A stretch of 64,000 nt of DNA from Nanobdellota archaeon. Lineage in GTDB: Archaea; Nanobdellota; Nanobdellia; Parvarchaeales; Parvarchaeaceae. The stretch spans positions 1-64,000 of the forward strand of contig JAKBJF010000002.1 in the NCBI GenBank assembly GCA_021836125.1, in the 5' to 3' direction. Positions 18,383-36,344 of the stretch are shown here, in pieces (positions within the stretch are counted from its first letter, which is position 1; the number at the start of each line of letters is the position of its first letter). The notes beneath the pieces were generated by a model. The model was not told the DNA's origin. It was given only the letters and a program-made list of their open reading frames with translations, and made no database searches. The translations under genes were made by a program, and so were the position numbers.

Positions 18383-18392
18383 TTTTTAAATA
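18383..18392 (+). promoter_or_regulatory. TATA-like box for the LonB-like operon
   Basis: TTTTTAAATA is centred 28 bp before the ATG at 18416, supporting a leaderless start there rather than at the in-frame codon at 18395. Confidence 0.5.
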
Positions 18393-18415
18393 GGTTGCAT
18401 ATTCTTAGTATTCAG

Positions 18416-20656
18416 ATGACTAAGCAAGACCTAGCCACGATTATTAAAAGAATAGACGCGACCCAACAAAGGCCAAGATGGGATACGTTGGACCAGTTCC
18501 TTAGTGATGAGAAATTCCACGAAGAAGAATTCAAAGACACTTCGCAGCTCCCGCTTCACTTTGTCATGGAGATGCAGGGAAAAGAACGTTTCTATAATCC
18601 ATATAACCGTATAGTCGGACACGAAAAGGACAAAGAACTTTCTAAAAGAAGCGTAGAGCAGTTCGTGAATTCCATAGTAGAACTTGAGTCGAAGATAGCC
18701 AAATTAAAGGAGCAGGGCTACCGAAAAGAGGATATAATAGACATGGTCAGAAAAGGGCTCACCATGCCCATAATCTTTAGAGTAGGCCCTTACGGCAGCA
18801 GTAAGACAATACAGCAGGAAGCCGAAATGGAGTACCTTCAGATGCTTAAGAAAAGTTTAAAACTGAAAGGTTTCGATTACGTCGCATTTAGGGACGCACG
18901 CGCTCCGCAGGGCTTTAGATTGGAACAGATGGCCTCTCCTAGCGGCAGGAAATTGCGCGACGAATATGAGGAGAACCAGAAATTAAACGAAAAATTATCT
19001 AAATATCTAAAATGGGGAACTATAGGAACGATATTGACCGGAACGACTTACGGATTGGCAGAGCTTCTCGTGCAATACTGGTGGGTAGCACAGTATTACG
19101 GATACGACTGGACGGAATGGATATTCTTAAACTACGCGCAGTTCGTACCGCCGCTTGCGCTTTCGGTCATAGCCGGCGCAACCCTATCGATAGGCCGCAC
19201 GCTTTACAACGCTTTCAATAAAGACAAGAAGGATCACCCAGCGCTCCTTTCGGAAGGCGGAGAAGTCCCTCACGTGTACATAGGAAAGAACGAAACGATC
19301 GAGGGCTTGATAGGTGGCGTTGAAAATAAAAACGGCGTGGCGCCGCAGGATTCCATACGGCAAGCCGACATGCTGAGAGCGCACGAAAACATATTCATGG
19401 TCGAGAACCTCGGCGACCTTTCAGACGAGCTGCAGGGCAGCCTTGCTCAGATATTGGAGGAAAAAGTGATAGAATTCGCGAATCTTCCCCGCGGTTACAG
19501 GCAACTTGTGTACTCGCTTATGTCGCTCAATGTGAACACAGAAAAATTGCCGTTCATAAAAGAATCGTTGAGAAACAGGATGAACTATGCGAAAATAATG
19601 AACGTACTTAATGAAGTGGATCGCGATAGTGTTGATGTCGTAATAGAAGGCCAGAACGGTTCGTCTACAGTTGTAAGCAGCAGATACGTAAAAAGAAGCA
19701 GATTCAATGAAAGACATTTCGGGCTCGCCGTACTTGCAAAGACGATATATGGAATAGGCGGACGACCGTGGAAAAAGGAAGGATATGAAGAGCTCGTCAA
19801 TTACTGCTCAAGACTAGCAGATAATTCACGCCAGATGAGAATAAGCAGGCGCGTGATAGGCATGATAAAATCGGCCGAAGACATCAGGGCCGCAGAGGAG
19901 GAAAAAACAAGGATTAGATTGCCTTACGTCGAATTGCGTCACATACTAATGGCGGAAGAAGAGTCAAAATCGATAACAAGAGCGGTAATGGAAACAAAGT
20001 TAGATAATTATTCAGTTCAGACTTCCGGCACGCACGATAAGTTTTTAGTAGGCAGGGTGAACGTGGCCACGATATACCATGACCCTCTTCTGAAAGGTCT
20101 TGGTTCTGATGTGCCTGAAGAGATATACGACTATATCGAAAAAGAGGATTATATGGGCTACACAATACCGATACAAGCAGTTGCGAAGACTCTTCCTGCT
20201 GGAGTGCTTGGAGAATTAAACATAGTAAGCAAGGACAGCAGCCTTAACAGAGACTTCTATCGTTCATCGTTGAAGATACTCCTGCAAATGGATGGAATAG
20301 ACCTCGATTCTTATAAAATATCGATATCCATCCCTTCTCTTAAGGACGACGATTCGATACTGGCGGGCGCTTATGTAGCAGTAAAGTCTGCTATCAATAA
20401 TACTCCCGTAAGGCAGGATGTAAAGCTGGCTTTACATATGCTTGAAACGGGTGAAATAACCTCCTTAGACAAGCTCAATATGAGGCTATTGGATACAGTT
20501 GCACAAGGAAACAAATTCCTGATATCAGGATATGATATGCACAACAAAACGTTGGATGCTCATGGTAACAGCTTATACAAAGGAACGAATATAAAAGAAG
20601 TATCAAACAAATCAGAGCTTATGAAGCTAATTTCGGGGGAGAATGGAACAGCCTGA
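18416..20656 (+). CDS. Membrane LonB-like AAA+/protease homolog with degraded active sites
   Basis: The 746-residue protein follows the archaeal LonB plan: an IVGHEKDKEL lead-in, a P-loop, a segment APQGFRLEQMASPSGRKLRD, two membrane helices (about 199-221 and 240-260), a Walker B region, an alpha domain with SRRVIGMIKSAEDIRAAE, and a C-terminal Lon-like domain. The P-loop is GPYGSSKT (124-131), lacking the last Gly of GxxxxGK[ST]. Walker B reads IFMVENLG (326-333), so the usual Asp-Glu is Glu-Asn. In the protease domain the Ser aligns with Ser647 in DDDSILAG, before TPVRQDV, but the dyad Lys position appears to be Arg690. ATP hydrolysis and proteolysis may be lost. It overlaps the next membrane-protein gene by 14 bp. 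LonB descent is well supported; inactivity is an inference. Confidence 0.75.
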   Translation: MTKQDLATIIKRIDATQQRPRWDTLDQFLSDEKFHEEEFKDTSQLPLHFVMEMQGKERFYNPYNRIVGHEKDKELSKRSVEQFVNSIVELESKIAKLKEQGYRKEDIIDMVRKGLTMPIIFRVGPYGSSKTIQQEAEMEYLQMLKKSLKLKGFDYVAFRDARAPQGFRLEQMASPSGRKLRDEYEENQKLNEKLSKYLKWGTIGTILTGTTYGLAELLVQYWWVAQYYGYDWTEWIFLNYAQFVPPLALSVIAGATLSIGRTLYNAFNKDKKDHPALLSEGGEVPHVYIGKNETIEGLIGGVENKNGVAPQDSIRQADMLRAHENIFMVENLGDLSDELQGSLAQILEEKVIEFANLPRGYRQLVYSLMSLNVNTEKLPFIKESLRNRMNYAKIMNVLNEVDRDSVDVVIEGQNGSSTVVSSRYVKRSRFNERHFGLAVLAKTIYGIGGRPWKKEGYEELVNYCSRLADNSRQMRISRRVIGMIKSAEDIRAAEEEKTRIRLPYVELRHILMAEEESKSITRAVMETKLDNYSVQTSGTHDKFLVGRVNVATIYHDPLLKGLGSDVPEEIYDYIEKEDYMGYTIPIQAVAKTLPAGVLGELNIVSKDSSLNRDFYRSSLKILLQMDGIDLDSYKISISIPSLKDDDSILAGAYVAVKSAINNTPVRQDVKLALHMLETGEITSLDKLNMRLLDTVAQGNKFLISGYDMHNKTLDAHGNSLYKGTNIKEVSNKSELMKLISGENGTA

Positions 20657-21353
20657 TTATAAATCGAGAATGGAGCAGCTACTGCAAGAGGAGTTGCACA
20701 AACAAGCGTCGGCGAAAGCTAAAAACAGCATAAATACCAAGGCAAAATCGCTGCTTGTGAACATCATCGCCCCGACAGGAATGCTTCCGTACACGTTGCA
20801 GAAAAAAATAAGCGATAAGTTTGCATTCTTTAAGCCGAAATTAGCAAGCATCGCTTCCTCAATCTACATGTTTGCACTCGGCGCATATACCTTTGGATTA
20901 CAGAGCATGGAATTAGAGAAAGTCAGTTCCGTAAACATACCCGGTTATCTATCCTATAGCGCAACAGTGTACGATATAGTCATACCCGCATTATTGTTCC
21001 AGACAATCGGTGCATATCTTATGCTTGATGCAATAAGAGCGCCGATAAGCTACCTTAAAAGGCCGACCGGTACGTTAATCGGTGAGGCGCTAGCTTACAT
21101 ACCTCGAGCAGTATCAAAGCTCTTCAAGTTTGACGATGCGGACGTCGCCAAAGCACTGTCTAGTGCCCGTTCAAAATTGTACGCAGAAAACATTCTGTCT
21201 TCGATAAATGAAAAGAATAAGGACCTCAAGGATCTGGCAAATTACACTTCCTCCCTTTATACTACGAGTGATCCGTGGACAAAATATGTACTCGCTTACA
21301 AGATAAACGAACTTAGGAAAAAGATGGGTTTAGAGGAGCTTAAACAGCCCTAA
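20643..21353 (+). CDS. Membrane protein encoded with the LonB-like protein
   Basis: The 236-residue protein starts inside the end of the LonB-like gene (14-bp overlap), implying coupled translation. The N-terminal 45 residues are charged and Lys/Glu/Gln-rich. Two or three hydrophobic segments lie between about residues 60 and 140, and the C-terminal 90 residues are charged and helical (KDLKDLANYTSSLYTTSDPW). I do not recognise a family. The arrangement suggests a dedicated partner, adaptor or substrate receptor for the LonB-like protein. A second Met at 20670 is a possible alternative start. Confidence 0.65.
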   Translation: MEQPDYKSRMEQLLQEELHKQASAKAKNSINTKAKSLLVNIIAPTGMLPYTLQKKISDKFAFFKPKLASIASSIYMFALGAYTFGLQSMELEKVSSVNIPGYLSYSATVYDIVIPALLFQTIGAYLMLDAIRAPISYLKRPTGTLIGEALAYIPRAVSKLFKFDDADVAKALSSARSKLYAENILSSINEKNKDLKDLANYTSSLYTTSDPWTKYVLAYKINELRKKMGLEELKQP

Positions 21354-33181: not shown

Positions 33182-33277
33182 CTGTAAATATTACAACAAT
33201 TCTTTGCGTTTGTCTGAAATATAATCATTAAATTACAGGGGCGAGATTATATGTAATTCCAGGCTTTGAAGGATAAT

Positions 33278-34726
33278 ATGCCAAAGAAAATCAGACCTTC
33301 TACGTCACAGACCGAAGGCGTAATTGCCGCTAAAAGTTCGACGCATGCAAGCAAGTTATTGTCAATACTTGAAAAGATTGATCAAGAGCACATTGCTGAA
33401 CCAGACATGTTTACAAGCGAAAGAGGGTATGTATCGCTCACGCTGTTTGGGCTTTTGTCTACGGTCGTAGGAGAAAACATGCTTATAATTGGCGAACCCG
33501 GCACAGGAAAGACAACAGTGTCAAAACTGTTTGCTAGCAGTATATATAATATTCCTTCAAGCGTCGTTAGCGCGTCCATGATACGAGGCACTCCAGAGGT
33601 CACGCTTGCGTCAATGATAGGCTATCTTAATCCAGGCGATTTCGTAAAAGGCAAGGAGTCAGTAGTCTGGCGGCTGTTTCCATTTTCACCGTTAAAGATA
33701 ATAGACGAATTCAACAGAATCCCGCCTCAAAAACAAAACATATTATTCCAGGGCATCGACAAGGACGACGCCATATGGGAAGTCTACAGCAATATCCTGA
33801 TAGGGATTACATCATCAATATTTGCTACTATAAATTATAGCGATGAAGGCACATCACCCATGTCTGGACCTATATTGGACAGATTTGGTGTGATGGTCGA
33901 GGCTTCGCCACCTCCCGCAATACACATACCCGATATAAAGATACGCAATCCCGATAAAAAGAATGTGGACCTAAAACAAGTTTCTTATTGGAGAAAACAG
34001 ATGAACGACGCTGTTGAACTCGGCGACGTCGTTTCTGCCCTGGAGATACTACTAAGTGCGGATAAAGGAGGAGAACGCATAAAGTTATCTGAGATGCGCG
34101 AAATACGAGAAAAAGTTTATGAAATTGCAAACCAAATACCAGAATTCGCATATAGTTCCGCCGCAGGAAAAGAGAGGACGGAAGAAAGTTTAAAGGCGTA
34201 TCTATTCCTTTCTTATCTTACTGCAGAAGCGAATTATTCACCGTTTGGCGTGAAGAGAAGCACAGACCCGCTTACTTCAACAAAAGACCATTTTAAGGGG
34301 TTACAGTTTTCAGATGTAATAAAATTCAATCTTACTCCAAGAAGTGCCAATTCGATAAGATTGTATGCAGCGGCACTGGCCTTCATAGAAGGCAGAGAGT
34401 ACGTTACATTGAAAGACATAGTCGCAGTAGCTCCTTATTGTATAGCCCATAAACTGGTCTTTGTAGATCGAAACAAATATCTAAACGATGCGCAGAGATC
34501 CGATGAATATAGGATATTCGCCGCGAAGACGAAAATAAATGGAGTCCTGAAAAGATTTACGGAGACATATCACTTGATATTGAAATATGACGAGACGCTG
34601 AAATCGTTAGATCCAAAGTACTTCACAAAGAACGATTGGAAAGACAATATGGGATTCGATCATCCGATGGCCCAGAAGCTTTTTGATAGCTATAAGAGGG
34701 AAAAGCTTGGCAACCGCCGCTCTTGA
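33278..34726 (+). CDS. MoxR-type AAA+ ATPase
   Basis: The protein is 482 residues from the ATG at 33278; a TTG at 33266 is less likely. It has Walker A GEPGTGKT at about 72-79 and Walker B with D143-E144 (KIIDEFNRIP), then the usual QNILFQGID and sensor-1 regions (SIFATINY). MoxR ATPases remodel partner complexes and act with a von Willebrand factor A protein. The next gene encodes such a protein and starts inside the end of this one, so the pair is a MoxR-VWA unit. Confidence 0.9.
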   Translation: MPKKIRPSTSQTEGVIAAKSSTHASKLLSILEKIDQEHIAEPDMFTSERGYVSLTLFGLLSTVVGENMLIIGEPGTGKTTVSKLFASSIYNIPSSVVSASMIRGTPEVTLASMIGYLNPGDFVKGKESVVWRLFPFSPLKIIDEFNRIPPQKQNILFQGIDKDDAIWEVYSNILIGITSSIFATINYSDEGTSPMSGPILDRFGVMVEASPPPAIHIPDIKIRNPDKKNVDLKQVSYWRKQMNDAVELGDVVSALEILLSADKGGERIKLSEMREIREKVYEIANQIPEFAYSSAAGKERTEESLKAYLFLSYLTAEANYSPFGVKRSTDPLTSTKDHFKGLQFSDVIKFNLTPRSANSIRLYAAALAFIEGREYVTLKDIVAVAPYCIAHKLVFVDRNKYLNDAQRSDEYRIFAAKTKINGVLKRFTETYHLILKYDETLKSLDPKYFTKNDWKDNMGFDHPMAQKLFDSYKREKLGNRRS

Positions 34727-36344
34727 AGAACTCCTTGCCATTGCATGGAGGAAAATAATCTCAAGATATTCACCATTGCTCGATTTTCCGGTAATAGTGG
34801 GAGAAGATGACAAAAAAACAGATACAGCTTCCTTTGACAATGAGACACACAAGATATTTGTGAACAAAGGATATGTAGATAGCGAGTCCAAAAATAAAGA
34901 AATAGCTAAGGAGTCTTTGTTAGAGACCCTTCTGACACACGAAACGTTTCACCATCTAGTAGCCCCATACGACTCTGATACGGCGATACGTAACGCGATC
35001 CTTGTCAGTAAAATAACCTTCGACAAGGAAATATCCTCCAGAATAATAGAATATTACTATGAAATGAAAGTGCACTCAATACATGCACTAGAAACTCCGG
35101 CAGTTAAAGATACAATTTACAAGACAATAATAAAGCCCGCAGAAAAAAGCAATGATCCAAACACAACGCTGTATGCGGATGTGTTGGCAACAAGGTTGGG
35201 CTTGGAAATACCAATGCGCGAAATAAGCGATCCCGAGTACAAAAAAGCAGTCTCTATACTCGGCAAGATGGATTATCTCAGGGATGACGAAAATGATGCA
35301 AGACTCTCATTGTTTGCAAGGATTTTCAAAAAATTCATAAAAGAAGACAAAAAAGACGAATCTGACAGCGGCGAAGGAGGCAGTGTATTCTCAAAACACG
35401 ACAAACTAAATGGCGGTAAATATGGCTTGGGTAGGTTTTCTAAGGAAGAGATGATGCATGGTCTTGGACAGATAGCGCAGCAAATAGACAAGCAGCAGTT
35501 CAAGAAGATGTTATCGGATCTCGGGTTAGACAAGTCGTTTGCACAAAAAAATTACGGACAGATGGTCGGACGAAGAGGGGTAAACGACATAAAATTTGAC
35601 GACACTCTGTATTTCATGTCAAAAGCAGAGATGTACAACCCCCCTAAAATAGTAAAGAGCAGGAAAGTTTATGACCTGTATCAGTCAGGTACTTCTCCCT
35701 TCGATATAAACGAAAACGAACTGGAAGATTACGATCCGATAAACAGTTTTGGACAGCTTACAGAACCGCTTGCCAGAAAAAAGGAATACTCAAAAGTGAC
35801 GTCGTATGAGAAGGGCGACCAGAGACTTGGCGATCTGCTGATAATAAAAGATACGTCATCTTCTATGGATAACATTCATGATGAAGTCACTATCGCTTCG
35901 CTGGTCATGGCAAAGGCTTATATCAACAGCGGATCTGAAGTCTCAATCTACAACTTTTCGTCAAAAAACCAGCATTCGCATCTGCCGCGCAGTAGAGACA
36001 TATGGTCGATAGCAAGGCTGCTTGTCGGTAAGTACAGCGGCGGCACAGAAATAAACATTTCTGACCTCAAGAAAAGGCTTGGCAAAGGGGAGGATGTGCT
36101 GTTATTCACTGATTTAGGAATAGCCAACATAGAAGAACTCATGGGACTGTTGACAATGACAGATAATGGGAGAGTCGCGGTTTTCCTAAAGATCGGAAAA
36201 GAAATCTATCACGACGCCGGCATTTTTTCCCATATAACGAAGAAGTACAAGAACATAAGGATATACAAGTACGAAAATGTTGACGAATTATCCTCGCTGG
36301 TAATAAATGACATAAACAGCCAGATAGACGACACTCCAGATTAA
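34707..36344 (+). CDS. Metallopeptidase-like/VWA protein paired with MoxR
   Basis: I chose the TTG at 34707 because GAGGG at 34696-34700 lies 6 bp before it; an upstream TTG at 34683 is the alternative. The protein is about 545 residues. Near residues 78-82 it has HETFH within LTHETFHHLV, an HExxH zinc-peptidase motif. The C-terminal half is a VWA-like domain with an intact MIDAS DTSSS (382-386) and a later FTDLG. The domain order resembles proteins combining DUF2201-type metallopeptidase and VWA_2 domains. The start lies 20 bp inside the MoxR gene, so the two are co-translated. Whether the peptidase is active is unknown. Confidence 0.82.
   Translation: MATAALEELLAIAWRKIISRYSPLLDFPVIVGEDDKKTDTASFDNETHKIFVNKGYVDSESKNKEIAKESLLETLLTHETFHHLVAPYDSDTAIRNAILVSKITFDKEISSRIIEYYYEMKVHSIHALETPAVKDTIYKTIIKPAEKSNDPNTTLYADVLATRLGLEIPMREISDPEYKKAVSILGKMDYLRDDENDARLSLFARIFKKFIKEDKKDESDSGEGGSVFSKHDKLNGGKYGLGRFSKEEMMHGLGQIAQQIDKQQFKKMLSDLGLDKSFAQKNYGQMVGRRGVNDIKFDDTLYFMSKAEMYNPPKIVKSRKVYDLYQSGTSPFDINENELEDYDPINSFGQLTEPLARKKEYSKVTSYEKGDQRLGDLLIIKDTSSSMDNIHDEVTIASLVMAKAYINSGSEVSIYNFSSKNQHSHLPRSRDIWSIARLLVGKYSGGTEINISDLKKRLGKGEDVLLFTDLGIANIEELMGLLTMTDNGRVAVFLKIGKEIYHDAGIFSHITKKYKNIRIYKYENVDELSSLVINDINSQIDDTPD

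Follow-up and report, generated by a model that had tools for sequence, protein, structure and literature searches.

A putative LonB-derived pseudoprotease family with a co-encoded membrane partner in Micrarchaeota

Two overlapping genes on the forward strand (Table 1) form the subject of this analysis; they lie in the window, i.e. the whole 64,000-nucleotide stretch of contig JAKBJF010000002.1 that was analysed. The first, referred to here as pseudo-LonB, belongs to an open reading frame at 18395-20656 (+) that encodes 753 amino acids if read from a TTG at 18395, and 746 if read from an ATG at 18416. The latter, presumably leaderless start, which an earlier note on this DNA had assumed, is the likelier one because of its spacing from a TATA-like element. 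Residue numbers are counted from the TTG. The source genome of the window has a size of 800 kb and is 66% complete. A contig scan identified an 8.3 kb contig (L017) of a Candidatus Micrarchaeota MAG as a 99.55% identical copy, the sole match there. A further genome labelled as the same species (G155) gave no meaningful match to either 16 kb or 8 kb of window DNA, and is therefore uninformative on insertion or loss of the gene pair. Almost no DNA similarity to it is found over window positions 1-24000, even at the RNA polymerase and ribosomal protein genes; the mismatch is a problem of labelling, incompleteness or binning. Elsewhere in the window (33266-36344), a gene for a MoxR-type AAA+ ATPase is followed by an overlapping gene whose 553-residue product has no Pfam match but contains DTSSSM, suggestive of von Willebrand A.

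Table 1. Positions of the genes, sites and motifs discussed, in window coordinates.
Feature	Position	Strand	Basis and conservation
TATA-box-like element TTTTTAAATA	18383..18392	+	Sequence; about 28 nt 5' of ATG 18416
Pseudo-LonB gene	18416..20656	+	ORF call; profile comparisons with LonB
P-loop GPYGSSKT, residues 131-138	18785..18808	+	Per-residue table; Lys137 in 9/9, Gly-to-Ser variable
Two-helix membrane hairpin, residues ~206-232 and 243-266	19010..19192	+	Hydropathy and alignment; position as in LonB
Walker B Asp-Glu replaced by Glu337-Asn338 (MVENL)	19403..19408	+	EN in 9, EQ in 1 of 10 members
Arg395, Arg-finger position	19577..19579	+	Alignment; invariant, 10/10
Ser654, catalytic Ser position	20354..20356	+	Ser in 2, Ala in 6, Thr in 3 of 11 members
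Arg697, catalytic Lys position	20483..20485	+	Arg in 11/11 members
Co-encoded membrane partner, 236 aa	20643..21353	+	Overlaps pseudo-LonB by 14 bp; hydropathy

Profile comparisons indicate that pseudo-LonB is a diverged paralogue of archaeal LonB. The claim rests on profiles since no Pfam model passes its cut-off, either for this protein or for the 236-residue partner. In a profile-profile alignment (hhalign) with 14 Micrarchaeota LonBs, the match extends over 531 columns from the P-loop to the C-terminus, with a probability of 99.7% and an E-value of 1e-26. TIGR00764, the LonB model, matches all eight full-length members of the family (best E-value 1.8e-11), at scores far under its 516.6-bit cut-off, and the top PDB match is a LonB structure (3k1j; E 3e-14); the LonB fold homology that the earlier note had proposed to look for is thus found by all of these comparisons. 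A single-sequence AlphaFold2 model had a pLDDT of 34, too low for it to be interpreted. The order of domains is that of LonB, as had been claimed: the P-loop is followed by a membrane hairpin, Walker B, the lid and the S16 domain. The two helices of the hairpin are placed between Walker A and Walker B by the hydropathy of eight members and by their aligned position. An N-terminal FKxT motif is also shared with LonB; in contrast, pseudo-LonB has a helical insert of about 33 residues ahead of the P-loop.

The catalytic sites differ from those of LonB. At the protease site, Arg had been read at the position of the dyad Lys, and this substitution is found in every member (Table 1). In Lon proteases, 42 residues separate the catalytic Ser from the catalytic Lys (PMC9569914); exactly 42 lie between Ser654 and Arg697, so the Arg occupies the true Lys position and is not a product of misalignment. 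The catalytic Ser, which the earlier note had regarded as kept, is indeed present in the window gene, but not as a family feature: it is Ala or Thr in 9/11 members, and the retained Ser654 appears incidental. The Ser-Lys catalytic dyad of LonB is therefore absent from the family as a whole.

The ATP site appears to have been altered selectively. The reported change of the Walker B Asp-Glu to Glu-Asn turns out to be conserved: the Asp is replaced by Glu in 10/10 members, and the catalytic Glu by an amide, with Asn in two of the three families and Gln in the other. Exchange of the Walker B Glu for Gln or Asn is the engineered trap change used to freeze AAA+ machines. The P-loop behaves differently. 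The replacement of its Gly by Ser is real in the window gene, but the family does not share it; three relatives (G006, G004 and G031) have a normal Walker A sequence, GxxxxGK[ST], and the Lys is retained throughout. Judged by these residues, the P-loop of pseudo-LonB is not generally dead, although in members with a non-consensus version, including the GPYGSSKT of the window, it may bind ATP poorly. The sensor 1 Asn and the sensor 2 Arg are retained in 10/10 members, like the Arg finger; P-loop Lys, sensor 1, Arg finger and sensor 2, all of them shared with LonB, are invariant wherever the position is present. Finally, two LonB segments, PFQSGG and RSERSAGAM, assigned by position as pore loops 1 and 2, are deleted in 9/9 aligned members.

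With binding residues kept, the hydrolysis residue turned into an amide and the pore loops deleted, the AAA+ part looks selectively locked rather than simply decayed; had the gene decayed at random, the two sensors and the Arg finger would probably not all have survived. The pattern suggests that nucleotide binding is kept, and that hydrolysis, threading and proteolysis are lost. The same invariant residues could also belong to a working ATPase with a shifted catalytic acid, either Glu337, which is an invariant acid at the Walker B position, or another residue; such a protein would remodel membranes or extract proteins from them, with no proteolysis. The amide at the catalytic Glu in all ten members and the loss of both pore loops make this improbable.

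Searches at the levels of genus, class and phylum detected relatives, some complete and some partial, in 11 genomes from three families of Micrarchaeota: eight of one genus, one of another family (G031), and two of a third family, in which the genes are fragments at contig ends (G224 and G420). They form a monophyletic clade with a support of 1.0 and a long stem. That this might be a decaying, functionless duplicate of LonB could be argued from the several lost catalytic residues and from the patchy occurrence, in only 8/28 sampled genomes of the genus. However, open frames of 718-825 amino acids are maintained in eight divergent genomes. Synonymous sites are saturated, and yet the closest pair still has 80% protein identity (pN 0.12), which identifies these as maintained genes. 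Together with the invariant residues and the conserved partner gene, this contradicts simple pseudogene decay, and leaves only a marginal chance for the duplicate as a functionless remnant.

Divergent Lon paralogues are also seen in G224 and G031 (L097:3329-6326 (-), L100:5421-8228, L098:2-2389 and L099:3904-7284), and reflect an expansion of Lon in Micrarchaeota. One of them has 796 residues, an intact dyad and its own overlapping gene for a 204-residue protein with one membrane helix; another, of 1126 residues, combines a pair of AAA+ modules with a C-terminus that is Lon-like.

Two membrane helices are predicted in the partner. Its C-terminal part is soluble and helical, and in most members it ends in the conserved sequence N-x-[LV]-R-[KE]. 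The 14 bp overlap described for the window gene is one instance of a general arrangement, as the partner lies directly 3' of pseudo-LonB in 10/11 genomes, with overlaps of 14, 4, 1, 4, 4, 0, 1, -1, 4 and 4 bp. This adjacency is found both in family f1 and in the distant family f62. Flanking genes vary between genomes, so that pseudo-LonB and its partner make up the conserved unit. No convincing match to a partner without pseudo-LonB was found among 371 phylum genomes, and partner searches against Pfam and PDB gave nothing above chance. Evolutionary distances of the two proteins correlate with r 0.95, over pairs that are non-independent. Across relatives, then, the Walker B change, the Lys-to-Arg replacement and the partner are conserved; the Ser and the Gly-to-Ser change in the P-loop are not.

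Several local variations accompany the pair. In family f62, a third gene follows straight after the partner (L103:2062-3177 in G420; L101:1217-2284 in G224); it encodes 355-371 amino acids, with one N-terminal membrane helix, a soluble domain and no Pfam match. In G023 (L021:10329-12239), the partner is enlarged to 636 residues by a large insertion ahead of its membrane helices that contains HEYSH, an HExxH-like motif; in G004 (L023:7390-7794), a 134-residue open reading frame with a zincin-like HELSH closely precedes pseudo-LonB in the same orientation. Neither protein has a Pfam match and there is no cross-genome pattern, and the idea that a metalloprotease belongs with the pair found no support. 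Proteasome alpha is near pseudo-LonB in G006, G013 and G031, a proximity that the other neighbourhoods examined do not share. In G031 (L025:7603-9602, -), where no partner is detectable, pseudo-LonB is divided at the Arg finger into two frames overlapping at ATGA, either because the gene is genuinely split or through a frameshift; the next gene downstream is for an M50-like membrane protease.

The second, intact LonB whose presence the earlier note had raised does exist. The window assembly encodes it elsewhere (L001; G000:C27), with GEPGTGKS, FIDEI, GDSAS and a Lys at the dyad position, so the housekeeping role of LonB is covered; the same assembly also has a separate membrane S16 protein that lacks an AAA+ module. 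Intact LonB is present in 9/10 tested holders of pseudo-LonB. This co-occurrence, and the retention of an Arg finger, which mixed interfaces would need, are what might be expected of a regulator of the canonical enzyme, the idea put forward in the earlier note. Pseudo-subunits would insert into LonB rings or sit on them, poisoning or retargeting the protease, and the partner would serve as receptor. This is a doubtful reading. Pseudo-LonB is only 17-20% identical to the LonB of the same genome, its pore loops are absent, and it evolves much faster, with identities of 34-57% against 73-82% for LonB over the same genome pairs. Furthermore, LonB is near-universal whereas pseudo-LonB is patchy, and one genome (G024, 84% complete) holds pseudo-LonB with no LonB found. 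Since the dedicated partner is invariant, a stand-alone membrane complex is at least as likely as a LonB regulator or substrate receptor.

Of the original proposal, that an inactive AAA+/Lon scaffold has been turned to a new membrane task, the derivation from LonB and the catalytically dead membrane protein stand; inactivity is too simple a description of the AAA+ part, which seems selectively locked with its binding residues kept. Pseudo-LonB is probably a membrane scaffold or adaptor, and not a protease. The best explanation of the residue pattern, put forward with about even confidence, is that pseudo-LonB is an ATP-locked pseudoenzyme scaffold in the membrane with a dedicated partner subunit. 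In this mechanism, the protein would assemble into a hexameric ring, probably of itself. ATP bound between the subunits would serve as a structural glue that stays unhydrolysed, as in a Walker B mutant engineered as a trap. Ring and partner would be seated together on the membrane, and may hold membrane proteins or hand them over, acting as a scaffold, adaptor or holdase that neither threads nor cuts. A more specific and more tentative version is that of a natural Walker B trap, in which ATP has become permanent glue, threading and proteolysis have been discarded and a membrane subunit of its own has been gained; this would be a new archaeal scaffold or adaptor, a counterpart of FtsHi or iRhom.

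Pseudoproteases related to rhomboids and to FtsH are well documented. Those of the iRhom/Derlin type are membrane proteins that serve as cargo adaptors; their fold is unrelated and has no AAA+ module, and they provide an analogy only. The chloroplast FtsHi proteins, which are membrane AAA+ relatives with dead proteolysis, occur in a dedicated complex that is reported to act in protein import as an ATP-driven motor (PMC8197885). They are the best functional analogy, and no more than an analogy: they belong to the FtsH family and have lost the HEXXH zinc site, and, unlike their ATP-driven motor, pseudo-LonB seems to have lost hydrolysis as well. Within the Lon family, LonC-type proteins such as MtaLonC have an AAA+ module without ATPase activity, with sensors and Arg finger lost, and are active proteases without membrane helices (PMC3391209). 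Pseudo-LonB shares with them the loss of AAA+ ATPase activity, as far as its residues indicate, but is otherwise their mirror image: it keeps sensors, Arg finger and membrane hairpin, and it is the protease dyad that is gone. Thus, neither the lack of membrane helices nor the active Ser-Lys dyad of LonC is found here. As for archaeal LonB itself, the Walker B Asp-Glu, dyad Lys and pore-loop segments, and usually the Ser, were looked for and are missing, and a dedicated partner has been added; because of these absences, pseudo-LonB is to be classed as a LonB-derived pseudoprotease family and not among the LonB proteases. No description of it was found in a search for LonB and Lon protease in Micrarchaeota, and in the part of the literature covered, no Lon-family member lacking both ATP hydrolysis and proteolysis was found, nor an archaeal one.

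To our knowledge, the cell biology of DPANN archaea is almost unknown, and the gene pair offers a candidate membrane complex that has a name and can be tested. Should the nucleotide-locked reading be correct, evolution would have arrived unaided at the Glu-to-Gln/Asn exchange with which biochemists freeze AAA+ proteins, and would have kept it.
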